Below are positions 17,157 through 45,008 of a DNA stretch of 46,892 nucleotides, in pieces. The notes beneath the pieces are model-generated. The model saw only the letters and a list, made by a program, of their open reading frames with translations, searched no databases and was not told the DNA's origin. Within the stretch, counting starts at the first letter, position 1. Each line of letters opens with the position of its first letter. Origin of the DNA: Candidatus Palauibacter australiensis (GTDB lineage: Bacteria > Gemmatimonadota > Gemmatimonadetes > Palauibacterales > Palauibacteraceae); the NCBI GenBank assembly GCA_026705295.1, contig JAPPBA010000130.1, positions 1 to 46,892 of the forward strand, read 5' to 3'. A program made the position numbers and the translations under genes.

Positions 17157-18302
17157 ATGAGCATGGACCGTCGAGACTTCGTTCGAACTTCCGCCGCGGG
17201 CCTGGCCGCGGCCGCCACGCCCGCCGCTCTGGCCGCCGAGCGCCGCCCTTCCCGGGCCTCCGACGGCTTCGGGGCTCCCGCCGTCCACCGTTCGCGGGCC
17301 GCCCGCCCCATCGTCGTCTCCGACCTCAGCGGGATCCGCTTCACCAACGGCGGACCCGAAAGCTCGGTGGAACGCGCCTTCCGCGGCATCGTCGAGGGCG
17401 AGGACGTGCTCGACGCCCTCATGGCGGGTGTGAACATCCCGGAGAGCGACCCGACGGAGATGGGGATCGGCTACGGCGGGCTGCCCAACGCGGACGGCGT
17501 CGTCCAGCTCGATGCCTGCTGCATGCACGGACCCCGGCGCTGGGCCGGCGGCGTCGCGGCGCTCGAGGGCGTTCGTACGCCGTCGCTCGTCGCGAAGGCC
17601 GTGGCCGAACTCACCGACCACCACCTCCTCGTCGGGGCCGGCGCCCAGGCGTTCGCGCGCCAACTCGGGTTCGAGATCGAGGACGACCTCAACACGGAGG
17701 CGTCGCGCGCCCTGTGGCTCGAATGGCGTCGGCGGATCGATCCGGGCCACTGGCTCGACCCCCGCAAGCGGCTCGAAGCCGGGCTCTCGATGGTCGACGA
17801 CGGCCTGATCCCCGCCCATTCCTTCTGGGGGACGACGAACTGCAACGCGGTGAACGCGGAAGGGGACATCTGCGGCGTCACGACGACGAGCGGCCTCTCG
17901 TGGAAGATCCCCGGGCGTACCGGCGACTCCCCGATCCTCGGCGCCGGCCTGTACGTGGACAACGACGTGGGCGCCGTCGGCTCGACGGGCCGGGGCGAAG
18001 CGAACCTGTACAACCTCTCGTCCTTCCTCGCCGTCGAGTTCATGCGCCAGGGGATGAGCCCGCTCGATGCCGGCATGGCCACCCTGGAGCGGATCCGGTC
18101 GAACACGGTGGAATCCAGACTCCTCAACGCGCGCGGCCTGCCGAGCTTCGACGTCCGCTTCTTCCTGCTCAACAAGCAGGGGGAGACGGCGGGCGTCGCC
18201 CTGTACGGCTCGGCGGAGACGCACTACGCCGTCTGCAGCGAGAACGGCGCCGAGGAGCGCCCGTTCGAGGGTCTGCTGGAGGGCTCGCCCCGCGACGCGT
18301 AA
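17157..18302 (+). CDS. Tat-exported glycosylasparaginase-family Ntn hydrolase
   Basis: The 381-residue product has a Tat signal (MDRRDFVRTSAAGLAAAA) and the fold of N4-(beta-N-acetylglucosaminyl)-L-asparaginase. Landmarks are GGLPNADGVVQLDACCMHG, VTTTSGLSWKIPGRTGDSPI, GAGLYVDNDVGAVGSTGRGE and SFLAVEFMRQG. Family members make themselves active by cutting before a threonine, then hydrolyse asparagine-linked sugars or beta-aspartyl peptides. The expected His-Asp-Thr cleavage site reads Trp-Gly-Thr here (Thr226, with a second Thr at 227), so the Asp that assists self-cleavage is replaced by Gly. Other catalytic-site motifs are kept. ATG 17157 is preceded by AAGGGG; ATG 17163 is also possible. It is divergent from the toxin module and converges on an aldo/keto reductase. 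Confidence 0.85.
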   Translation: MSMDRRDFVRTSAAGLAAAATPAALAAERRPSRASDGFGAPAVHRSRAARPIVVSDLSGIRFTNGGPESSVERAFRGIVEGEDVLDALMAGVNIPESDPTEMGIGYGGLPNADGVVQLDACCMHGPRRWAGGVAALEGVRTPSLVAKAVAELTDHHLLVGAGAQAFARQLGFEIEDDLNTEASRALWLEWRRRIDPGHWLDPRKRLEAGLSMVDDGLIPAHSFWGTTNCNAVNAEGDICGVTTTSGLSWKIPGRTGDSPILGAGLYVDNDVGAVGSTGRGEANLYNLSSFLAVEFMRQGMSPLDAGMATLERIRSNTVESRLLNARGLPSFDVRFFLLNKQGETAGVALYGSAETHYAVCSENGAEERPFEGLLEGSPRDA

Positions 18303-18340
18303 CGGCGTCCCGGGGTAGTTCGCGCCGCCCTCGGGCTGTG

Positions 18341-19309
18341 CTAGCGGTTGTAGGCGGGCGTCGGTCCGCGCAGCCGCGCCCACACGCCGTCGCAGGCGGC
18401 GAGCACCTCGGCGTCGAGCGGGGGCGCGTCGAAGGCGTCGAGGTTTTCTTCGAGGTGCTCCATGCGCGAGGCGCCGACGATGATGCAGTCCGCGCCCTCC
18501 TGCGCCCGCAGCCAGCCCAGCGCGAGTTGCACCGGCGTCAGATCCGCCTCCCCGGCGATGGCCTCGACCTCGGCCACGGCGCGGAAGTACTCGTCGTGCC
18601 AGAAGCGGTCCAGGTACATGCGGTTGCCGTCGAAGCGCGTCCCCGGCAGCGGCGTTCCCGGCCTCTGCTTTCCGGTGAGGAGCCCGCCCGCGAGCGGATT
18701 GTAGACGACGTTCGAGATCCCGTAGCGACGCGTGAAGGCGAGGTATTCCTGCTCGATCCCGCGCGCCGCGAGGTTGTACATGGGTTGCGCGATCCACGGT
18801 TTCGCCCACCTCTCGCGCTCGCAGATGGAGAACACCTCGCACATCTGCCACGCGCTGTAGTTGGACGTCGCCGGATAGCGGATGAGCCCCTCGACCCGAA
18901 GCTCTTCCAGCGCGGCGAGACTCTCCTCGATGGGCGTCTCGTAGTCCGGCAGATGCAGGTAGTAGACGTCGAGATAGTCGGTGCCGAGCCGCCGCAGGGA
19001 TTCGTCGATCCCGCGGCGGATCGCGTCGCGCGAGAGGCCGGTGTAATCGACGGGGTCGCCCATCGGATTGCACACCTTGCTCGCGAGGATGATCTCCCCG
19101 CGCCGGTCCCCGAGGACCTCTCCCAGGATCTCCTCCGACCGTCCCTGGTTGTAGACGTTCGCGGTGTCGAAGAAGTCGACGCCCCGTTCGAAGCACAGCT
19201 CCACCATCGCCGCCGCGGCTTCCACATCGGTCTGCGACCCGAACGTCATCGTGCCCATGCAGGCACGCGACACTTCGAGGTCGGTATGGGCGAGTTTTCG
19301 TCTCTCCAC
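18341..19309 (-). CDS. Aldo/keto reductase
   Basis: The 322-residue NADPH-dependent TIM-barrel oxidoreductase has the full catalytic tetrad: Asp48 and Tyr53 (FFDTANVYNQGRSEE), Lys78 (LASKVCNP) and His119 (VYYLHLPD). The cofactor segment IIVGASRMEHLEENL near the end matches the usual GxxxxxHLxEN pattern. It is closest in style to the YghZ/Tas-like group. The start at 19309 gives the normal MERRKLAHTDLEVS opening. The substrate is probably a carbonyl compound but is not defined. It is divergent from the aminotransferase gene, with a gap of about 110 bases. A second, fused aldo/keto reductase lies at 36019. Confidence 0.9.
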   Translation of the reverse strand: MERRKLAHTDLEVSRACMGTMTFGSQTDVEAAAAMVELCFERGVDFFDTANVYNQGRSEEILGEVLGDRRGEIILASKVCNPMGDPVDYTGLSRDAIRRGIDESLRRLGTDYLDVYYLHLPDYETPIEESLAALEELRVEGLIRYPATSNYSAWQMCEVFSICERERWAKPWIAQPMYNLAARGIEQEYLAFTRRYGISNVVYNPLAGGLLTGKQRPGTPLPGTRFDGNRMYLDRFWHDEYFRAVAEVEAIAGEADLTPVQLALGWLRAQEGADCIIVGASRMEHLEENLDAFDAPPLDAEVLAACDGVWARLRGPTPAYNR

Positions 19310-19417
19310 GTTCTTTCGTATCCTTCCCTAGCAGTCCGTGGCCGGGAACGCCCGCTCACCCGGGGCACACCGGGCGGCGCCGGCAACGTAGCAGAACCTC
19401 AGCGGGGGATGGAACCG

Positions 19418-20743
19418 ATGACGACCGGCCCGGTCCGGACGCGGACGCTGGAGGAACTCGCGGCCGACGCTGCGGCCCGCTACGCGGCCGCGAATCCCCT
19501 GAGCCAGGCGAGCTTCGAGCGCTCGACGAACTACCTGCCGGGGGCGGACACACGAACGGTCAACCACTACGACCCGTTCCCCGTCACCATCGTCCGCGGC
19601 GAAGGCTCGCGGCTCCACGATCTCGACGGGCACGTCTACGTCGATTTCCTCAACGACTACACGGCCGGGCTCTACGGCCACTCGAACCCCGCCATCCGTG
19701 ACGCCATCGCGGAGGCGGCGGGGAGGGGCCTGACGCTCGGCGGGCCGAGCCCGAACCAGCAGGAATTCGCCGAACTCATCTGCCGGCGCTTCCCGTCCGT
19801 CGAGCGCGTGCGCTTCACGAACTCGGGGACCGAGGCGAACCTCATGGCGGTCAGCCTCGCGCGCGCCGTGACCTACCGGGAGGGCGTGCTCGCGTTCGAC
19901 GGCGCCTACCACGGCGGACCCCTGAACTTCACCGGCCCGGACCGGCGCCTCAACGTGCCGTTCCCGTGGACGGTTGCGGACTACAACGATGCCGAATCCG
20001 CGCGATCCCTCATCGCGGAACGGGCGACCGAACTTGCCTGCGTGCTCGTCGAGCCGATGCTTGCGGGCGGCGGGTGCATCCCCGGGACCCGGGTGTTTCT
20101 GAACGCGCTGCGCGATGCGACGCGCCGGGCGGGCGTCCTGCTGATCTTCGACGAGGTCCAGACCTCGCGGCTCGCTCCGGGCGGCCTGCAGGGGGCGCTC
20201 GACATCCACGCCGACCTCACGACCTTCGGCAAGTACCTCGGGGGCGGCGCCTCCTTCGGCGCCTTCGGGGGGCGGGCGGACCTGATGGATCGCTTCGATC
20301 CGCGCCGGGAGAACCATCTGAGCCACCCCGGCACGCACAACAACAACTCGCTGACCATGGCCGCGGGCCTCACGGGGCTGCGCGACGTGTTCACTCCCGA
20401 CGCAGTGCGCCGGCTGACGGTGCGGGGAGACGCCCTGCGCGCCGCCCTCAACGGGGTCGCGGCGGCGAGGGACGCGCCCGTGCAGGTGACCGGCCGCGGT
20501 TCGATCATGACGGTCCACTTCCAGCGGAGGCCGATCCGCCGCCGCGCCGATGTCGCCCATACGCCGGTGGCGGCCCGCGACCTCTTCCAGCTCGAGATGC
20601 TGCTGGCCGGGTTCTACGTCGCCCGCCGGGGGTTCGTCACGGTCTCGCTCGCGCACGACGACGACGACTGCGACGCGCTGGTCGCGGCATTCGACGCCTT
20701 CCTCGGAAGGCACGCCGCCGCCATCGACGCGGCCCTTGAATGA
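19418..20743 (+). CDS. Class III PLP-dependent aminotransferase (glutamate-1-semialdehyde mutase-like)
   Basis: The 441-residue product has the class III motifs: NSGTEANLMAVSLARA for phosphate binding, FDGAYHGGPL, LVEPMLAGGGCIPG, LLIFDEVQTSRLA and the PLP lysine Lys272 in TTFGKYLGGG. The overall pattern (RLHDLDGHVYVDFLNDYTAGLYGHSNP) resembles glutamate-1-semialdehyde aminomutase, but the gene is not near other heme genes and the C-terminus is divergent. A general omega-aminotransferase or amino mutase role is equally possible. Of two in-frame ATGs, 19418 is preceded by GGGGG at a spacing of 9, while 19409 directly abuts it. The open frame continues far upstream, but that part is antisense to the aldo/keto reductase gene. 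Confidence 0.85.
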   Translation: MTTGPVRTRTLEELAADAAARYAAANPLSQASFERSTNYLPGADTRTVNHYDPFPVTIVRGEGSRLHDLDGHVYVDFLNDYTAGLYGHSNPAIRDAIAEAAGRGLTLGGPSPNQQEFAELICRRFPSVERVRFTNSGTEANLMAVSLARAVTYREGVLAFDGAYHGGPLNFTGPDRRLNVPFPWTVADYNDAESARSLIAERATELACVLVEPMLAGGGCIPGTRVFLNALRDATRRAGVLLIFDEVQTSRLAPGGLQGALDIHADLTTFGKYLGGGASFGAFGGRADLMDRFDPRRENHLSHPGTHNNNSLTMAAGLTGLRDVFTPDAVRRLTVRGDALRAALNGVAAARDAPVQVTGRGSIMTVHFQRRPIRRRADVAHTPVAARDLFQLEMLLAGFYVARRGFVTVSLAHDDDDCDALVAAFDAFLGRHAAAIDAALE

Positions 20744-32052: not shown

Positions 32053-34455
32053 GTGTCCGGGTACATCGCGCCATTCGAGTCTGTCGGACTCGCCGATCTC
32101 GAATCCGTCGGGGGGAAGAACGCGTCGCTCGGCGAGATGATCTCCCATCTCTCGGCCGCCGGCGTGGACGTGCCCGGCGGCTTCGCGATCACCGCCCGGG
32201 CGTATCGCGACTTCCTCTCGGGCGAACTCGGAGAACGCATCCACGCTTCGCTTGATGCGCTGGATGTCGAGGACCTGGGGGCGCTCGCCCGGGCGGGCCG
32301 CCAGATCCGGGGCTGGGTCGCCGATACGCCGCTTCCGCCGGAACTCGCCGCCCGGATCGGCACCGCCTACCGCGAACTCGGGGCCGGCGGAGACGGATCG
32401 GCCGGCAGCGCATCCGACGACGACATTTCCGTCGCGGTGCGCTCCTCGGCCACGGCCGAGGACCTCCCCGAGGCGTCCTTCGCCGGGCAGCAGGACACAC
32501 TGCTCAACGTCCGCGGAGTGGACGCGGTGCTGCGGGCCGTCCACCACGTCTACGGCTCGCTGTTCAGCGACCGGGCGATCGCCTACCGGGTGCACCAGGG
32601 GTTCGCGCACCGCGACGTGGCGCTCTCCGTCGGCGTGCAGCGCATGGCCCGCGCGGACAGGGGCTCGAGCGGCGTGATGTTCACGCTGGATACCGAGTCC
32701 GGTTTCCGGGACGTCGTGTTCATCACGAGCGCGTACGGTCTCGGCGAAACGGTCGTGCAGGGGGGCGTGAACCCCGACGAGTTCTACGTCTACAAGCCCG
32801 CCCTGCGCGCCGGCCGCCATGCGATCCTCCGCCGGAACCTCGGAGGCAAGGCGATCAAGCTCGTCTACGCCGGATCGGGAGCGCCGGCCGGGGACGAGGC
32901 CGCGTCCGTCCGGACGGTCGATGTGCCGGAGGAGGATCGGCTCCGCTTCTCGCTGACGGACGACGAGGTGCACGAACTCGCCCGCCAGGCACTCCTCATC
33001 GAGGACCACTACGGCCGCCCCATGGACATCGAGTGGGCGCGGGACGGCCTCGACGGCGCGTTGCGCATCCTGCAGGCGCGTCCGGAGACCGTGCAGAGCC
33101 GCGCGGGGGGCGTGATCTCCCGCTTCACGCTCAAGGAGCGGGGCCGCGTGCTCACCGAGGGGCGCAGCATCGGCGGCCGGATCGGCGGCGGCCCGGCGCG
33201 CGTCATCGAGTCGGCCTCCGAGATCGCGCGCTTCCGGCGCGGCGACGTGCTCGTGACGGACATGACGGACCCGGACTGGGAACCGATGATGAAGCAGTCC
33301 GCCGCCATCGTCACGAACCGCGGCGGCCGCACCTGCCACGCGGCGATCATCGCGCGGGAACTCGGCATCCCCGCGGTCGTCGGCTGCGGCGACGCGACGG
33401 CGCAACTCGCGGAGGCCGGCGACGTGACGGTGTCCTGCGCCGAAGGCGACGCGGGCTACGTCTACGAGGGGCTGCTCGACTTCGAGGAGGGCGAGATCCG
33501 GCTCGGCGCCATGCCGGAGATCCCGCTCAAGATCATGCTCAACGTGGGGAACCCGGACCGCGCGTTCGATTTCGCCTCCATCCCGAACCGGGGCGTGGGT
33601 CTCGCCCGGCTCGAGTTCATCATCAACCGCATGATCGGCGTACATCCGCAGGCCCTGCTCGACTTCGATAGCCTGCCGGACGACCTTCAGGACGAGATCC
33701 GGTTCCAGCACGCCGGCTACGCGGATCCGGTCGAGTTCTACGTCGAGAAGCTGACCGAGGGGATCGCCACCATCGCCGCGGCCTTCGCCCCGGAGCCCGT
33801 CATCGTGCGCCTGTCCGACTTCAAGTCGAACGAATACGCGGATCTCATCGGCGGCCGCCGCTACGAGCCGCGCGAGGAGAACCCGATGCTCGGCTTCCGC
33901 GGCGCGTCCCGCTACGTGTCGGAGAGCTTTCGTCCCGCCTTCGAACTCGAATGCCGAGCGCTGCGGCGGGTTCGCCGGAGGATCGGGCTCGACAACGTGT
34001 GGGTGATGGTCCCCTTCGTCCGGACGGTGGCCGAGGCGCGGGCCGTCGTCGACCTCCTGGCGGAGAACGGCCTCGCCCGCGGGGAGGACGGGCTGCAGCT
34101 CATCATGATGTGCGAGCTTCCCTCGAACGCCCTGCTCGCGGACGAGTTCCTCGAACACTTCGACGGCATGTCGATCGGGTCGAACGACATGACGCAGCTC
34201 ACCCTCGGCCTCGACCGCGACTCCGGGCTCATCGCCGACATCTTCGACGAGCGCGACGCCGCGGTGAAGGCGACGCTGTCGATGGCGATCCGCGCCTGCG
34301 CGAAGGCGGGCAAGTACATCGGGATCTGCGGGCAGGGACCGTCCGACCACCCCGATCTCGCGCGCTGGCTCGTGGAGGAGGGGATCGAGAGCATGTCCCT
34401 CAACCCGGACACGGCCGTCGAGACGTGGATGTTCCTCGCGGGGGAGGAAGTCTGA
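32053..34455 (+). CDS. ppsA: Phosphoenolpyruvate synthase
   Basis: The enzyme converts pyruvate, ATP and water to PEP, AMP and phosphate, the entry step of gluconeogenesis from pyruvate or lactate. The 800-residue product has the N-terminal ATP-binding domain ([31 protein letters not shown]), the swivelling phosphohistidine domain ([20 protein letters not shown], His429) and the C-terminal PEP-binding barrel. The barrel ends in [20 protein letters not shown] with catalytic Cys759 and [11 protein letters not shown]. The Thr two residues before His429 is the site PpsR would phosphorylate. GGGAG lies 5 bases before GTG 32053; TTG 32041, also with a purine tract, is an alternative. It is the first gene of an operon running to 38873. 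Confidence 0.96.
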
Positions 34456-35975
34456 AGCCGGCGAACGGAGACGCAGCGGGCACGGCGGCCCCGGGGTCCG
34501 GCGGAACGGGGCTCGCGCGCCAACTCGGACTGTGGGGTCTGGCGGCGACAGGCATCTGCTCGATGCTGGGGGCGGGGATCAACGTGGTCCCCGTCATGAT
34601 CCAGCGGAACGTGCCCGGGATCGCGGAGAACGTGCTCCCGGCGTTCGCCTTCGGCGCCCTGCCGGCCGTCCTCGCGGGGCTCGCCTACGCGATCCTCGCC
34701 TCCGCCATGCCGCGCGCCGGCGGCAGCTACGTCTTCGCGAGCCGGGCGCTCGGTCCGTACTGGGGCTTCGTGGCGAGTTTCTCGCAGTGGTTCGGCCTCT
34801 CCATCGTCATCGGGGTCGTCTCCTACCTCGTCGTCCCGTTCCTGAGAGACATCGCCGGCGCCCTCGGCATGGAGGGCGTGGCCGGCGCGCTCGACACGGG
34901 TCCGGTCCGGGTGGGGCTGGCGCTCGCGATGCTGTGGACGTTCGCGTGGGTTAACCTGCGCGGGCTCAGGGCCTACGAACGGACCGTGGTGCCGCTCATG
35001 GTCGTCATGTTCGCGCTCGGCGCGATCGTCATCGTGGCCGGATTCTCGTTCGACCAGGGCGACTTCGCGGCGGCGCTGCTCGCGCGGGAAGGCGTGGAGG
35101 TGCCCGCGGCCGCGCCGCCACCGCTCGACCCCGCCCGCTTCCTCGCCGCTTCCGGCCTCCTCTTCGCCAGCTTCGTCGGCTTCGACGCGATCGCGCAGGC
35201 GGGCGGCGAGGCGCGGAATCCGAACCGCGCGCTCCCCCTCGCGATCGGCCTCGCGGTCTTCATCGTGGGCGCCTACTACCTGCTGTTCACCGCCGCCGTT
35301 TATCACACGGTCCCGTGGGAGTTCGTGTGGGCGCGCGCGCAGGAACAGGACCTCACCGCCCCCGGACTCCTTGGCTACGTGCTCCCGCCGTGGTGGACGG
35401 TGCTCATCGTGGCGGGCGCCGCGATCGCCCTCATCAACGACCTGCCGGCGATGATCCTCTCCGTGTCGCGCCTCGTCTTCGCGTGGGCCGAGGACGGGAT
35501 CTTCCCGTCGGGCCTCGCCCGGGTACACCCGACGCACCGCACGCCGCACGCCGCGATCGTCCTCTCGACCGCGCTGGCCTCCGTCGCGATCGTCGGCAGC
35601 GAATTCGCGGGTGACTTCTTCCTCGGCGTCGACATCATGGTCACGTCGATGCTCGTCAACTTCCTCCTCATGTGCGTCTCCGTGCTCATCCTCCCGCGGC
35701 GGAACCCCGGGATCGCCGCGAACTTCCGCGTGCTCCGCGGCCCGGTGGCGCGAACGTGCGTGTGCGTGGCGGGGATCGTGCTCCTGGCGACGTTCCTCGT
35801 GACCCACCTGCGGAAGGACCTCACGGCCGACGTCGCGGCGTGGTATTTCCACTCCACGCCGCTCTGGATCGGCGTCATGGCGCTGGGATCGCTCATCTAC
35901 ATCCGCAAGATGCGAACGCTGCGGGCCTCCGGGACGGACGTCGACCGCCTCTTCCGCGAGCTGCCTCCTGAGTAG
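34452..35975 (+). CDS. APC-superfamily amino acid permease with apparent CTG start
   Basis: The 507-residue product has 12 predicted membrane helices, beginning with the family motif [19 protein letters not shown]. It also has [28 protein letters not shown] in helices 6-7 and [25 protein letters not shown] after helix 8, typical of APC transporters. It should import an amino acid or similar small organic acid by ion symport. No ATG, GTG or TTG lies between the end of ppsA and helix 1. The best candidate is CTG 34452, which overlaps the ppsA TGA (CTGA) and has GGGGAGGA directly upstream. A GTG at 34425, inside ppsA, is the other option. ATG 34563 would cut helix 1. Confidence 0.85.
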
Positions 35976-36018
35976 GCCGGAGCGCCGGGAACTGGCTCCC
36001 GGCCTGGAGATCTCCCGG

Positions 36019-37431
36019 GTGCTGACCGGACTGTGGCAGGTGGCCGACCTGGAACGCGAGGGCCCCATCGAGGTCGAGGGCGCCGCGGCCGCCATGGACG
36101 CCTACGCCGCGGCCGGCTTCACGACGTTCGACATGGCGGACCACTACGGTTCGGCCGAGGAGATCGCCGGCGCGTGCGCGTCCAGGGCCCCGCATCGCGA
36201 CGGAGACATGCAACTCCTCACCAAGTGGACGCCCGCGCCCGGTCCGCACACGCCGGCGACCGTGCGCGAAGCCATGGAGCGGTCGCTGCAGCGCCTGCGG
36301 GCGGACGCGATCGACCTCCTCCAGTTCCACGCCTGGCACTACGCGGATCCGAGCTGGCTGGACTGCCTGTTCGCCCTCCAGGAGTTAAAGGACGAAGGCC
36401 TGATCCGGCACCTCGGCCTCACGAACTTCGACGCCGTCCACCTCGACATGGTGTGCCACACCGGCATCGACGTGGTCTCGAACCAGGTCTCGTACTCTCT
36501 CCTCGACGGGCGCGCCGCCGGCGCGATGACGGAGGTCTGTCTCCGGCACGGGGTCCAGCTCCTCGCCTACGGAACGCTGGCGGGCGGCCTCCTGACCGGG
36601 CGCTGGTTCGACGTGGAGGACCCGGGGCCGGAGGGCGTGAAGACGTGGTCCGAGATGAAGTACCGCCGCTTCGTCGAGGCGGCGGGCGGCTGGGGCCGCC
36701 TTCAGGTGCTGCTCGCGGCGGTCCGGGCGGTGGCGATGAAGCATGGCGTGTCGATGGCGAACGTCGCGGCGCGCGCCATCCTCGACCGGCCCGCCGTGGC
36801 GGGGGTGATCATCGGCGCGCGGCTGGGGCGCCGCGAGCACATCGCCGACAACCTGCGCCTCTCGTCGCTGCAGCTCGACGCGGCGGACCGGAAAACGCTG
36901 GCGATGGCGAGCGGGTCGCTGGACCCCCTTCCGGGAGACTGCGGAGATGAGTACCGGCGGCCCCCCTACCTGACGGCTGCGGGCGACCTCAGCGATCACC
37001 TGGACGAACTTCCGCCGCCGTATCCCGTCCGGACCGGGACCGGCGGCCGGACGCGCGTGGACTCCGGCACGGTGTGGGAGGACCTCGCGGGCTACAGTCG
37101 GGCGGTGCGGACGGGCGACCGCATCGCGGTCTCCGGGACGACGGCCACGCACGGGGACCGCCTGGTCGGCGGGGACGACCCCACCTCGCAGACGCACTTT
37201 GTCATCGACAAGATCGAAGGGGCGATCGAAGCCCTGGGCGGACGCCTCGAGGACGTGGTTCGGACCCGGGTCTTCGTGCCGGAACTGGCGGACTGGGAGC
37301 CGGTGGCCCGCGCGCACGGCCAGCGATTCGGCGGCATCCGGCCCGCCAACACGCTGGTTCAGGCGGGTCTCATCGGGTCAGGATACCGGGTCGAGATCGA
37401 AGCCGAGGCCCGCGTGGGGAGGGAGCCGTGA
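36019..37431 (+). CDS. Aldo/keto reductase fused to a RidA/YjgF-like domain
   Basis: The 470-residue product is a two-domain fusion. Residues 1-310 are an aldo/keto reductase with the tetrad Asp38, Tyr43, Lys69 and His104 (FDMADHYGSAEE, LLTKW, LLQFHAWHY), and IIGARLGRREHIADNL for the cofactor. After a linker, residues about 350-468 form a RidA/YjgF-like trimer-type domain (DLAGYSRAVRTGDRIAVSGTT, IEALGGRLEDVVRTRVFV, RPANTLVQAGLIGSGYRVEIEAEA). The Arg that lets RidA deaminate enamines (in the PARSxV motif) is replaced, reading RPANTLV, so it is not a canonical RidA. GTG 36019 has GGAG 9 bases upstream. The family's N-terminal hairpin (RELAPGLEISR) is encoded in frame just upstream, so a CTG start at 35968 is possible. 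Confidence 0.88.
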   Translation: MLTGLWQVADLEREGPIEVEGAAAAMDAYAAAGFTTFDMADHYGSAEEIAGACASRAPHRDGDMQLLTKWTPAPGPHTPATVREAMERSLQRLRADAIDLLQFHAWHYADPSWLDCLFALQELKDEGLIRHLGLTNFDAVHLDMVCHTGIDVVSNQVSYSLLDGRAAGAMTEVCLRHGVQLLAYGTLAGGLLTGRWFDVEDPGPEGVKTWSEMKYRRFVEAAGGWGRLQVLLAAVRAVAMKHGVSMANVAARAILDRPAVAGVIIGARLGRREHIADNLRLSSLQLDAADRKTLAMASGSLDPLPGDCGDEYRRPPYLTAAGDLSDHLDELPPPYPVRTGTGGRTRVDSGTVWEDLAGYSRAVRTGDRIAVSGTTATHGDRLVGGDDPTSQTHFVIDKIEGAIEALGGRLEDVVRTRVFVPELADWEPVARAHGQRFGGIRPANTLVQAGLIGSGYRVEIEAEARVGREP

Positions 37432-38873
37432 AGAAGAGGCGACGACACATCCGCGGGATCGTCCGCGTGGCCCTGCTGTGGGCCCTCGCCGGAGCGTTCG
37501 TCGGGGCGGTCATCGAGATCCTCGCCGACACGCTGCCGGGGGGACTTCCCATGGCGTCCCTCGTCGACATTTGGCCGCCGGTGCTCGCGATCATCGGCTT
37601 TGCCGGCGGCACGCTCTTCGCCGCGGCGTTCGGGGTTTCGGAAGTCTCGATGCTGAAGACGCTGCGCTCCGTCGTCCGCTTCAGGAGGCTCGAACTGAAC
37701 CCCGTCGCGCGCCGGCTCGGCCGCTGCGCGAGCGTCGAGGACCTGCGGGAGGTCGCCCGGCGCCGGCTCCCGCGCGGCGTGTTCGGCTACATCGACGGGG
37801 CGGCGGAGGATGAGCGCACCCAGGCGCGGAACTGCAACGCCTTCCACCGGCTGGAGTTCCGGCCCCGCGTCCTGCGGGATGTGACGAACGTGGATCCCGG
37901 TGTGGAGATCCTCGGCCGCCGCCACCCGCTGCCGCTCATCCTCGCCCCCACCGGGTTCAGCCGCATCGCGGATTCGGAGGGTGAACTCGCCGTGGCCCGG
38001 GCCGCGGCGCGCGCGGGGCTCACCTACAGCCTCTCGACCCTCGGCACCCGCTCGATCGAGGAGGTGGCCGCCGTCAGTTCCGGTCCCCGGTGGTTCCAGG
38101 TCTACGTGTGGAAGGACCGCGGCCTGGTCGCGGAACTCGTCGAGCGGGCCCGCGAGTCCGGCTACGAGGCGCTCCTGCTCACGGTCGATGTCGCGGTGCT
38201 CGGGCGGCGCGAGCGCGATGTCCGGCTTGGCTTCACGCTCCCCCCGCAGCTCGGCCTCGACACCTTCGTCGACGGGATCCGCAAACCCGGCTGGACGTGG
38301 GACTTCCTCACCTCCGAGCCGATCATCTTCTCGAGCGCCGTGAGCCGGGATGCGGCGGGCGGGGCGGGGGGCGTCGACGCCATGGGTCTCGCACAGTACG
38401 TGAACCAGCAGTTCGACCCGAAGCTGGCCTGGGATGATGTGGACTGGCTGCGCTCGATCTGGGATGGTCCCATCGTCATCAAGGGTATCCAGACGGTGGA
38501 AGACGCCGTCCTGGCGGCGGAGGCCGGCGTCGAGGGGATCGTGATCTCGAACCACGGCGGACGACAACTCGACGATGCGCCGCCGACGCTGGAGTTGCTG
38601 CAGCCGGTCGCGGATTCGGTCGGGGACCGGCTCGATGTCCTCATCGACGGCGGGGTCCGCCGCGGCAGCGACATCGCGAAGGCCGTCGCGCTCGGGGCGA
38701 AGGCCTGTCTGGCGGGCCGCGCCTACTTCTACGCGCTGGGAGCCGGCGGCGAGCGGGGCGTGGACCTCGTCCTCAAGTGGTTCGACGACGGATTCCGGCG
38801 CACGATGGCGCTCCTGGGCGCCCGGACCGTGGACGAGATCACTCCCGAATCGGTGCGCTGGCGAGACTCCTGA
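37428..38873 (+). CDS. FMN-dependent alpha-hydroxyacid dehydrogenase with N-terminal membrane anchor
   Basis: The 481-residue product begins with two hydrophobic helices (about 10-30, VALLWALAGAFVGAVIEIL; about 50-70, WPPVLAIIGFAGGTLFAAAFG). A full LldD/glycolate-oxidase barrel follows: GVFGYIDGAAEDERT, LILAPTGFSRIADSEGE, YSLSTLGTRSIEEVAA, WFQVYVWKDR, LLLTVDVAVLGRRERDVR, ISNHGGRQLDD with catalytic His376, and DGGVRRGSDIAKAVALGA. Such enzymes oxidise L-lactate or a related 2-hydroxyacid and pass electrons to the quinone pool. The usual protein starts near the barrel, so the two helices are an addition. The start is GTG 37428, overlapping the preceding stop (GTGA), after GGGAGGGAG. ATG 37650 could give a soluble form. 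With ppsA it would route lactate to PEP. Confidence 0.9.
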   Translation: MKKRRRHIRGIVRVALLWALAGAFVGAVIEILADTLPGGLPMASLVDIWPPVLAIIGFAGGTLFAAAFGVSEVSMLKTLRSVVRFRRLELNPVARRLGRCASVEDLREVARRRLPRGVFGYIDGAAEDERTQARNCNAFHRLEFRPRVLRDVTNVDPGVEILGRRHPLPLILAPTGFSRIADSEGELAVARAAARAGLTYSLSTLGTRSIEEVAAVSSGPRWFQVYVWKDRGLVAELVERARESGYEALLLTVDVAVLGRRERDVRLGFTLPPQLGLDTFVDGIRKPGWTWDFLTSEPIIFSSAVSRDAAGGAGGVDAMGLAQYVNQQFDPKLAWDDVDWLRSIWDGPIVIKGIQTVEDAVLAAEAGVEGIVISNHGGRQLDDAPPTLELLQPVADSVGDRLDVLIDGGVRRGSDIAKAVALGAKACLAGRAYFYALGAGGERGVDLVLKWFDDGFRRTMALLGARTVDEITPESVRWRDS

Positions 38874-41562: not shown

Positions 41563-42999
41563 ATGGAATTCATCACTGGACAGCACCTGCCTCGCAGGAC
41601 CTTCATTCGGGGTGTCGGGGCCACGCTCGCCCTGCCGTTCCTCGACGCGATGGTTCCGGCGGGCCGTCTGTGGGGATCGACGAGCGCGAAGAGCCTGACG
41701 GAGGGGAAGGGGACCCGTCTCATCGCGATCGAGGAGGTGCACGGCCTCGCGGGGTGCAACCGCGAGCACGGTGCGACGAAGTTCCTCTTCGCGCCGGAAA
41801 AGGCCGGACGCGAGTTCGAGATCATCGATGAGAGCGCGCTCGTCTCGCTGCGGCCGTACCGCGAGCACCTGACGATCGTCAGCAACACGGACGTGCGGAA
41901 CGCCGAGGCGTTCACGCCGCCCGAGATCGGGGGGGATCACTTCCGCTCGAGCGCGGTGTTCCTCACGCAGGCCCATCCGAAGCAGACGCAGGGGTCGGAC
42001 ATCTTCTGCGGGACCTCGATGGACCAGATCTACGCGCAGCGCTTCGGCCAGGAAACGCCGATGCCGTCGATGCAGTTCTGTATCGAGAACCTCGATCAGG
42101 CGGGCGGCTGCACGTACAACTACTCGTGCGCGTACACCGACTCGCTGAGTTGGGCATCGCCGACCGAACCGCTGCCCATGATCCGCGATCCGCGCGTCGC
42201 CTTCGACCTTCTGTTCGGCGCCGGCGGCACCGAGGCGGAGCGGGCGGCGCGGCGGGCCACGCGGCGCAGCATCCTCGACTGGATTTCGGGCGAGATCTCC
42301 TCCGTGCAGCGTACCCTCGGCGCTGAGGACGCGCGCCGCATGGACCAGTACCTGACGAACGTGCGCGAACTGGAGCGCCGGATTCAGATGGTCGAGGGGC
42401 GGAACTCGAGCGGCGAGGAGCGTGCCCTGCCCGAGGCGCCGGCCGGCGTTCCGGACTCGTTCACCGAGCACATGCAGATGCTGTTCGACATCCAGGTGCT
42501 CGCCCTCGAGACCGACATGACGCGCGTGATCTCGTTCAAGACGGGGCGCGACGCGCAGAACAGGGTCTTCCCCGACAGCGAGTCGGATCGGCCCTTCCAC
42601 CCGGCCTCCCACCACGGGAACCGGGAGGAGGCGGTGCTGGAGTTCAACAAGATCAACCAGTTCCGCGTGGGGCAGCTTCCGTACCTCATCGACAAGCTCA
42701 AGAACACCATGCACGGCGAGGAGAGCCTGCTCGACCAGAGCGTGGTCCTGTGGGGTTCGCCGATGGCCGATGCGAACCTGCACAACCACCGGCGGGCGCC
42801 GCTCTTCCTGATCGGCCACGGGAACGGGATGCTGGAGGGCAACCTGCACATCAAGGCGCCGGACGGGACGCCGATGGCGAACGCCATGCTGTCCGTCCTG
42901 CACGGGCTCGGCGTCGACGACATGCACGAGTTCGGCGACAGCACCGGCCCGATGGCGCTCAACCAGGCCGACCCCGCCATGACGGACGCGGGGACCTGA
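41563..42999 (+). CDS. Tat-exported DUF1552 protein
   Basis: The 478-residue product has a Tat signal (PRRTFIRGVGATLALPFLDAM) and the DUF1552 pattern. After the signal it has RLIAIEEVHGLAGCNREHGATK, VSNTDVRNAEAFTPPEIGGDHFRSS, SDIFCGTSMDQIYAQ and FHPASHHG. The end is VVLWGSPMADANLHNHRRAPLFLIGHGNG, which resembles the metal-site region of alkaline-phosphatase/sulfatase-type folds. Function is unknown, though it is the regular genomic partner of DUF1592-type cytochromes. GAGGGAGA precedes the ATG. It follows the cytochrome gene by 47 bases and is followed after 2 bases by the ankyrin gene, so the three form an operon. Confidence 0.9.
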   Translation: MEFITGQHLPRRTFIRGVGATLALPFLDAMVPAGRLWGSTSAKSLTEGKGTRLIAIEEVHGLAGCNREHGATKFLFAPEKAGREFEIIDESALVSLRPYREHLTIVSNTDVRNAEAFTPPEIGGDHFRSSAVFLTQAHPKQTQGSDIFCGTSMDQIYAQRFGQETPMPSMQFCIENLDQAGGCTYNYSCAYTDSLSWASPTEPLPMIRDPRVAFDLLFGAGGTEAERAARRATRRSILDWISGEISSVQRTLGAEDARRMDQYLTNVRELERRIQMVEGRNSSGEERALPEAPAGVPDSFTEHMQMLFDIQVLALETDMTRVISFKTGRDAQNRVFPDSESDRPFHPASHHGNREEAVLEFNKINQFRVGQLPYLIDKLKNTMHGEESLLDQSVVLWGSPMADANLHNHRRAPLFLIGHGNGMLEGNLHIKAPDGTPMANAMLSVLHGLGVDDMHEFGDSTGPMALNQADPAMTDAGT

Positions 43000-43001
43000 T
43001 C

Positions 43002-45008
43002 GTGCGGGCGGGCAGGCTCCGGCGCGCTTTCGCGGTCCTCTGCGCGGCTGTCCTCGTTTCGGCGGGGACGCCCCATTCGCCGCCCGATTCGCCCGTCGCC
43101 GACGCCGCCATGCGCGGCGAAGTCGAGACGGTGCGCGAACTCCTGCGGCAGGGGCTCGACGTCAACGCGGCGCAGGGAGACGGGATGACCGCCCTGCACT
43201 GGGCCGCCGACAGGGGCGACGCGGAACTCGCCGGCATGCTCATCTACGCCGGGGCCGATGTGGCGGCGGTCACGCGGATCGGGCAGTACACGCCGCTCCA
43301 CCTCGCCGCGCGACGGGGCTCGGCGGCGATCCTCGGCGACCTGATCGCCGCGGGATCGGATGTGACGGCGCTGACTGCGAACAGCGGCGCCACGCCGCTT
43401 CACCTCGCCGCGGCGGCGGGAGACCCCGATGCGGTCGCCGTTCTGCTCGACGCGGGCGCGGATCCCGATGCGGTCGAGGCGGAGTGGGGCCAGACGCCCC
43501 TCACCTTTGCCGCCGCGGGCAACCGGGCCGATGCGATCCGCGCGCTGCTGGAGGGCGGGGCGGATCCCGACGTCACGTCGCTCGTCATCGACATCATCGA
43601 GCAGGAGAAGCTTGACCGACTGGCGCGCCAGCGTGAGACGGAGGTGCTCGCGGCCTTCACCGGGGAGGGGGACGAGGCGCGCACGCCGACGCCCGGCGAA
43701 CTCCAGGCCGCCGTGCGCGCAGGGCGGGAGATCTATGCGGAGGGCCTTCCCGAAGAAGAGGAGGAGGAAGAAGAGAACGACAGCGACTTCAGTCGCCTCT
43801 TCCTGCCTCCGGTCGAGAAGATCGGCGGCCTGACACCGCTCCTGCACGCGGTTCGCCAGGGGTACGTGGAGTCGACCGTCGCCCTCCTCGACGGCGGTGC
43901 GGACATCGACCTCGTGAGCGCGGCGGACGGCACAAGTCCGCTCGTGATGGCCGCGATCAACGGCCAGTTCGATCTCGTGCTCATGCTCCTCGAGCGGGGC
44001 GCGGACCCGAACATCGCGGCCGATCTCAACGGAGTTTCGCCGCTGTGGGCCGTAGTCAACGCCCGCTGGCAGCCGCGCACGCGCTTCCCGCAACCGCAGG
44101 AGCGTCCGCTCCAGAGCGCGAACTACCTGGAAGTGGCGCGTTCGCTGCTCGATGCGGGCGCGGATCCCAACCATCGGATCACGCGGCATCCGTGGTACAT
44201 GGTCTATACGGGCTGCGGCAACCGGAACTGCGGTCTCGTCGACACCAACGGTGCCACCGCTTTCTGGCGCGCCGCCTACGCGACGGACGTCGAGGCGATG
44301 AAGCTTCTCGTCGAGTACGGGGCCGACCCGAACATCCCGACCAAGGCGCCCCCCCGGCGCCAGCGTCTCTCCCCGGACGAGTTCCTGCGACAGCAGGCGC
44401 TGAACGCGCTGCGCGACTCCTCCTACGTCGAACTCCCGCCGGAGGAGCGGCTGAAGCTGCTCCAGGACATTCGGGACCAGTTGCCGGAGGAGGAGCAGGC
44501 GGAGTTCCCCGACAAGGACCTCGACAATCTCAAGGCGGACGTGAGGGCCAAGCTGATCGAGGCCGCCGAAGCGGCGGACCAGGCTCGGGCGAACGCGCCG
44601 GACGCCTCGGGGCTGCCGCCCGTGCCCCCGGGCGGGCCGGGCGTGATGCCGATCCACGCGGCCTCCGGCGTCGGCTACGGCGAGGGGTTCGCGGGCAACG
44701 CGCACCGCCACACGCCCGAAGGCTGGATACCTGCCGTGAAGTACCTCGTCGAGGAACTCGGTGCGGACGTGAACGCCCGCGACCACAATGGCTACACGGC
44801 GCTGCACAACGCGGCCTCGCGCGGCGACAACGAGATGATTCACTATCTCGTGGAAGTGGGGGGTGACGTCACGGTGGTCAGCCGGCGCGGCCAGACGACG
44901 GCCGACATGGCGAACGGCCCCGTGCAGCGCGTCTCGCCCTTCCCGGAGACCGTCGCGCTCCTCGAGAGCCTGGGCTCTCACAACAACAACAACTGCCTTA
45001 CCTGCTGA
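43002..45008 (+). CDS. Exported ankyrin-repeat protein
   Basis: The 668-residue product has a signal peptide (RRAFAVLCAAVLVSAG). Ankyrin repeats fall in two blocks. The first, about 30-200, has repeats such as GMTALHWAADRGDAELAGMLI, YTPLHLAARRGSAAI and ATPLHLAAAAGDPDAVAVLL. The second runs about 275-450, and one further repeat pair (GYTALHNAASRGDNEMIHYLV) lies near the end. Between the blocks lies an acidic run of eight Glu, and a charged, helical segment (PPEERLKLLQDIRDQLPEEEQ) lies after about 465. The C-terminus is NNNNCLTC, with a Cys pair. It is probably periplasmic and binds proteins. It starts with GTG 43002, two bases after the DUF1552 stop, with no strong Shine-Dalgarno sequence, so translational coupling is likely. 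It recurs with cytochrome/DUF1552 pairs in related bacteria, as far as I recall. Confidence 0.85.
   Translation: MRAGRLRRAFAVLCAAVLVSAGTPHSPPDSPVADAAMRGEVETVRELLRQGLDVNAAQGDGMTALHWAADRGDAELAGMLIYAGADVAAVTRIGQYTPLHLAARRGSAAILGDLIAAGSDVTALTANSGATPLHLAAAAGDPDAVAVLLDAGADPDAVEAEWGQTPLTFAAAGNRADAIRALLEGGADPDVTSLVIDIIEQEKLDRLARQRETEVLAAFTGEGDEARTPTPGELQAAVRAGREIYAEGLPEEEEEEEENDSDFSRLFLPPVEKIGGLTPLLHAVRQGYVESTVALLDGGADIDLVSAADGTSPLVMAAINGQFDLVLMLLERGADPNIAADLNGVSPLWAVVNARWQPRTRFPQPQERPLQSANYLEVARSLLDAGADPNHRITRHPWYMVYTGCGNRNCGLVDTNGATAFWRAAYATDVEAMKLLVEYGADPNIPTKAPPRRQRLSPDEFLRQQALNALRDSSYVELPPEERLKLLQDIRDQLPEEEQAEFPDKDLDNLKADVRAKLIEAAEAADQARANAPDASGLPPVPPGGPGVMPIHAASGVGYGEGFAGNAHRHTPEGWIPAVKYLVEELGADVNARDHNGYTALHNAASRGDNEMIHYLVEVGGDVTVVSRRGQTTADMANGPVQRVSPFPETVALLESLGSHNNNNCLTC

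Follow-up and report, generated by a model that had tools for sequence, protein, structure and literature searches.

A conserved aldo/keto reductase-Rid fusion protein encoded beside an amino-acid permease in Candidatus Palauibacter australiensis

The window analyzed here, a 46,892-nucleotide stretch of Candidatus Palauibacter australiensis (Gemmatimonadota), carries on its forward strand a gene in which an aldo/keto reductase (AKR) domain is followed by a Rid domain (Table 1). The interval 36019-37431 is a single frame without an internal stop, and Pfam detects both parts at nearly full length, Aldo_ket_red (PF00248) with 194.7-194.9 bits against a cut-off of 24 and Ribonuc_L-PSP (PF01042) with 72.5 bits against a cut-off of 27.3. 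Both domains are still present when the fusion is rescored from a CTG codon at 35968, from which all residue numbers are counted. An AF2 model of the fusion has a pLDDT of 90.4 and a pTM of 0.91. We take D55, Y60, K86 and H121 to be the Asp-Tyr-Lys-His tetrad of the AKR and residue 461, within RPANTLV, to occupy the site of the PARS arginine of RidA. In an alignment of 123 fusions all four tetrad residues are kept in every sequence, as are R378, R434, H450, N461, T462, E476 and E478 of the Rid half (123/123 each), and thus neither active-site region shows decay. A first-pass annotation of this DNA had described two complete domains in one frame with an intact AKR tetrad, and the description holds on both counts. 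Elsewhere in the window are a second, standard AKR gene (18344-19309, reverse strand), about 30% identical to the AKR part of the fusion, and a long forward-strand frame (17717-20743), the C-terminal part of which is a class-III aminotransferase. A large ankyrin-repeat protein is encoded at 42750-45008 on the forward strand, and some species names in the genus point to sponge or coral hosts.

Table 1. Position of the fusion gene, its parts and the adjoining genes in the window
Feature	Position	Strand	Basis or remark
APC-superfamily amino-acid permease (CAT-like)	34434..35975	+	Stop TAG 35973-35975, hence an 8-nt overlap with the proposed fusion start
AKR-Rid fusion CDS	35968..37431	+	Proposed CTG start 35968, stop TGA 37429-37431, 487 aa; near-cognate start proposed from conservation
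Aldo/keto reductase domain	36022..36900	+	PF00248, residues 19-311; AF2 model and PDB matches across residues 1-329
AKR tetrad codon span (D55, Y60, K86, H121)	36130..36330	+	Invariant in 123/123 fusions
Near-invariant AKR tail/linker GDCGDEYRRPPYLTAAGDLSDH, residues 323-344	36934..36999	+	Sequence conservation; low pLDDT at 328-333 and 337-344
Rid (YjgF/UK114) domain, Rid6-like, residues ~359-487	37042..37428	+	PF01042, residues 373-482; PDB 3i7t (Rv2704)
Asn461 codon, position of RidA Arg105/107	37348..37350	+	Asn in 123/123 fusions; Asn or Arg in 0/24 standalone relatives
FMN-dependent alpha-hydroxyacid dehydrogenase-like gene	37428..38873	+	GTGA overlap with the fusion stop

The reading frame of the fusion runs open upstream into the permease gene, with no ATG, GTG or TTG ahead of position 36019. 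It had been noted at first pass that an in-frame upstream segment holds the missing AKR hairpin, which put the true N-terminus in question; this segment proves to be real and conserved, and the N-terminus does lie upstream. The GTG at 36019, with which the same annotation began the gene, fares less well. It is GTG in 12 of 13 close relatives and GCG in the other, and it leaves 3 residues ahead of the GLWQ motif compared with a median of 20 in ATG-started homologues. On the comparative evidence GTG 36019 is the wrong start and truncates the AKR N-terminus. The codon at 35968 is CTG in 13/13 close relatives (the window's own genome included), that at 35992 is CTG in 10/13, and that at 36004 is CTG in 11/13 and TTG in 2/13; 20 residues precede GLWQ from CTG 35968 and 12 from CTG 35992. 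The comparison drew on 74 of the best 80 of 555 genome loci, six Palauibacter-type loci being excluded, and the 67 of these that were given an ATG start have 16-35 residues ahead of GLWQ (18-21 in 62/67). Like GTG 36019, CTG 35992 was rejected because it is not conserved as a start codon and gives too short an N-terminus, and 36004 because its N-terminus would be shorter than those of the ATG-started homologues. The best start is, we infer, CTG 35968. The start of each locus was picked automatically as the start codon closest to the one proposed for the window, so agreement with CTG 35968 is partly built in; what counts in its favor is the spread of 16-24 among homologues, with no shorter ATG starts.

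The fusion occurs full length and in an open frame in 15 of the 17 genomes of the Candidatus Palauibacter genus, the window's own included, and the protein is 97% identical to that of Ca. Palauibacter rhopaloidicola. Across Gemmatimonadota, a match at E<=1e-80 was obtained in 96 of 298 genomes; in 90 of them it covers the entire protein with no stop, and the other matches are partial or AKR-only. The best 80 of 555 confirmed genome relatives all have one open frame of 479-519 aa with both domains, the frame at locus L096 running off the contig end; because the 555 were found through patterns of the AKR N-terminus and only the best-scoring 80 were taken, the 80/80 holds for the nearest relatives. 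That an assembly or sequencing artefact joins two separate genes, the error against which the first-pass annotation had cautioned, can be excluded, as nothing was found in support of an artefactual junction and the same junction recurs in these genus and phylum genomes, in all of the best 80 loci and in plasmid records. The best 80 loci, all fusion-bearing, cover about ten phyla. Counting the centre genome in each case and taking the phylum from the centre locus, matches were obtained in 7/398 Pseudomonadota, 5/296 Bacteroidota, 4/251 Chloroflexota (one fused and three AKR-only) and 17/101 Deinococcota genomes. In addition, 26 plasmid records match, 17 of them over at least 80%, including alphaproteobacterial (rhizobial) plasmids. 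In a FastTree tree, 89 fusions form one clade (99) separate from 21 AKR-only relatives (99), and the Palauibacter branch falls among other Gemmatimonadota. A single clade fits a single origin, and the AKR-Rid fusion apparently arose once.

Searches of the PDB with VIA and Foldseek using the whole model returned AKRs throughout, and the Rid domain was folded and compared separately. The barrel of the AF2 model matches PDB AKRs with VIA Z scores of about 29-31 over 281-298 residues at 26-30% identity. The top VIA match of the AKR part (35968-36960) is Chlamydomonas radial spoke protein 5 (7jrj, 7jtk; Z 31.7); 4xk2 and DepB score equally. DepB (8hwn), 7utf, 4xk2 and AKRtyl share the barrel with the fusion, but they are AKR chains without a Rid match, and the GDCGDEYRRPP tail of the fusion is absent from the alignments. 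Closer counterparts are three AKR-only homologues from the Chloroflexota phylum, 47-50% identical, which stop inside the linker after GDCGDEYRR, GDCGAEYRR or GDCGDEYRHR, whereas the fusion runs on through PPYLTAxGDLSxH into the Rid domain. The motif in the fusion is thus the AKR's own tail, retained and extended. Other AKR-only relatives, 35-44% identical, mostly have a different tail, GDVYxLERDRxGRHGxIMxYNLN. Within the tail G323, G326, E328, Y329 and R330 are kept in 123/123 fusions; AF2 confidence is low at 328-333 and 337-344 and the rest of the model is confident. We infer that residues 323-344 become ordered on cofactor, substrate or an adjacent subunit. The existence of AKR-only relatives also indicates that the Rid half is dispensable for AKR chemistry as such.

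The Rid half has the same fold as RidA proteins (YjgF, TdcF, UK114) but has Asn where these have the catalytic Arg, and it scores below the cut-off of the TIGR00004 model (43.3 versus 106.25 bits). The Arg105/107 conserved in the RidA subfamily is Asn in 123/123 fusions, and in 13/13 fusions of a narrower alignment with standalone relatives. In 24 standalone Rid relatives from Gemmatimonadota the same site is T (11), A (6), S (5) or C (2), never Asn or Arg. The absence of the Arg, reported at first pass, is therefore real, but it is not special to the fusion; the invariant Asn is the special part. We accordingly rejected a loss of the Arg in this protein, its absence being a trait of the subfamily. 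At position 376 the fusions have F (70) or Y (53), H395 is present in 111/123 and R453 in 109/123, with all 14 exceptions to R453 among the last-added 27 sequences (plasmids and other genomes). As described by Niehaus et al. 2015 (PMC4433059), Rid4-Rid7 are without the Arg, with a variable residue in its place in Rid5 and Rid6, and retain the Glu. By that published description, which covers Rid6 in general, the fusion resembles Rid6 (YjgF_YER057c_UK114_like_6), with the Arg replaced (N461), the Glu kept (E476/E478) and a Tyr or Phe kept (position 376), features that also fit Rid5. The nearest solved structure, by both sequence and fold, is the standalone Rid protein Rv2704 of Mycobacterium tuberculosis (PDB 3i7t; VIA Z 19.8, rmsd 1.0 over 117 residues; Foldseek 44% identity). 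Rv2704 is 44-46% identical to the Rid domain, shares its GYSRAVR and RTR motifs and likewise has no Arg at the RidA position; however, it has no AKR attached and has Thr at the site of the invariant Asn.

The genomic context is the strongest clue to what the fusion may do. The first-pass annotation made no mention of the transporter gene. In 69 of the best 80 of 555 loci (68 by filter, plus L026) the gene immediately ahead of the fusion, in the same orientation, encodes an APC permease, usually separated from it by no more than a few tens of nucleotides; at one of the 68 the computed in-frame stop of the permease match lies 1,564 nt away, so its frame may be interrupted. At three more of these 80 loci the permease lies 2-4 kb upstream, and eight have none, three of the latter with less than 1 kb of upstream sequence. 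The permeases are 47-97% identical to that of the window, which resembles CAT-type amino-acid transporters. Permease distances correlate with fusion distances (r 0.63 over 67 loci, with means of 0.368 and 0.369), a correlation that is partly shared ancestry. All eight alphaproteobacterial plasmid regions inspected (8 of the 26 records) have, in place of the APC permease, a branched-chain-amino-acid-type ABC transporter, an unrelated type that also takes amino acids. A small TIGR04076 protein and another AKR, standalone but from the same clade, accompany it in all eight, and a GntR regulator does so in seven. Among six Pseudomonadota genome loci (L169-L174), a branched-chain-type ABC permease family lies upstream of the fusion in 4/4 scanned, and at another (L171) a GntR gene is found at that place; a branched-chain-amino-acid-type transporter also precedes the fusion at L075. 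As a control, a similar AKR or an APC permease neighbors 0/24 standalone Rid loci (flanks of about 2.5 kb or less). A split version of the fusion, with separate adjoining AKR and Rid6 genes, was likewise encountered at none of the 24 within these flanks and was discarded.

Apart from the permease, no neighbor cluster exceeds 12/81 loci, and thus there is no conserved metabolic partner enzyme among them. Close homologues (89% identity or more) of the FMN-dependent gene downstream occur in 6 of the best 80 of 555 loci, all Palauibacter-type, making this a lineage-specific third gene. The neighbors of the 17 Deinococcota loci differ from the permease type, and no APC match lies within about 1.5 kb of the fusion at the 10 that were tested. 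Around these 17 loci are kynureninase, M24 peptidases with oligopeptide-type ABC transporters, flavin reductases and a DAO/Pyr_redox/DUF1667 set. A link to amine oxidation through the DAO-family gene beside the fusion was considered and dropped as evidence of imine chemistry, because the best NCBIfam match of this gene is type 2 glycerol-3-phosphate oxidase (274 bits versus a cut-off of 460) and it is accompanied by Pyr_redox_2 and DUF1667 genes.

We propose, with about an even chance of being right, that the fusion acts as an NAD(P)H oxidoreductase on an amino-acid-like compound taken up by the cell, with the Rid6-type domain handling a reactive amino-carbonyl. The adjoining transporter would import the compound, which the N-terminal AKR would oxidize or reduce with NAD(P)(H); the Rid6-type domain, with Asn for Arg and probably trimeric, may then bind or process an amino-carbonyl or an enamine/imine intermediate. 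Counted against this proposal are the lack of a conserved partner enzyme, the 17 Deinococcota loci with other neighbors, the AKR-only relatives, a window genome without kynureninase, and the reported inactivity of Y3550, the one Arg-less Rid5/6-like protein for which we found a published test (PMC7221256). The first-pass annotation had read the fusion as implying substrate channeling or a new ligand-sensing role, both of which are speculative. More tentatively still, the fusions could represent a putative transporter-coupled bifunctional family across about ten phyla, in which a Rid6-type domain with a new active site (Asn461, R378, R434, H450 and E476/E478) works in series with the AKR on one imported amino compound. 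If true, this would be the first defined role for Arg-less Rid proteins, the function of Rid4-Rid7 being described as not known in the accounts cited here (PMC4433059, PMC7221256).

The main rival holds that the Rid domain is non-catalytic and serves the AKR as a trimerization scaffold, a ligand-binding regulatory domain, or both. We regard this as possible but short of probable. The Arg that is missing is described as needed for imine hydrolysis (PMC4433059), the Arg-less, Rid5/6-like Y3550 is reported to have no deaminase activity and not to complement ridA (PMC7221256), Rid proteins are described as usually trimeric (PMC6742747), and AKR-only relatives manage without the domain. Set against this, the seven invariant Rid residues seem beyond what a pure scaffold needs, and Asn461 is fixed in the fusions at a site that varies in standalone relatives. 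If the domain is instead an ordinary imine/enamine deaminase, its carboxylate anchor would have been relocated, for example to R378 or R434, both of which are invariant in the fusions and also present in 24/24 standalone relatives. A Rid6 protein in a nicotine cluster is predicted to remove an enamine (PMC7688666), but this is a prediction in that source, and the low TIGR00004 score and the reported inactivity of Y3550 also make a relocated anchor unlikely.

Membership of the fusion in tryptophan/kynurenine catabolism is more doubtful again. At a Lysobacterales locus (L068, 1767-7476), genes for kynureninase (425 bits versus a cut-off of 246), kynurenine 3-monooxygenase (KMO; PDB matches at E 1e-129), an APC permease and the fusion follow one another, all co-directional, and a kynureninase gene lies downstream of and convergent with the fusion at 7 of the 17 Deinococcota loci. 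Three of the Deinococcota kynureninases scored above cut-off, and two loci (L066 and L196) belong to the same genome. Within Gemmatimonadota the fusion is found in 17 of 32 genomes with kynureninase compared with 79 of the 266 that have none (Fisher p 0.0095, with no correction for relatedness); the lineages are not independent, and kynureninase was one of many neighbors examined. However, 79 of the 96 fusion genomes, the window's own included, have no kynureninase, only one of the 17 genomes with both genes carries the two on a single contig, at a distance of about 160 kb, and a KMO probe matched a single locus. The kynurenine link is better taken to hint at what kind of compound is handled than to assign a pathway, and the L068 operon also counts in favor of the proposed oxidoreductase.

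We found no description of an AKR-Rid fusion in the open PMC literature, subscription papers lying mostly outside it. Niehaus et al. 2015 list finding Rid fusions among their aims (PMC4433059); the word 'aldo' is absent from the main text of that paper, and the fusion may be in its SEED data. The architecture is well conserved and its parts are ordinary, and the whole is undescribed in the open PMC literature searched. The fusions in 8/8 inspected plasmid records are labeled only 'aldo/keto reductase', and annotation thereby hides a family whose range takes in Gemmatimonadota, Bacteroidota, Deinococcota and rhizobial plasmids. A conserved AKR-Rid fusion encoded mostly beside amino-acid transporters offers a direct handle on the function of Arg-less Rid proteins.
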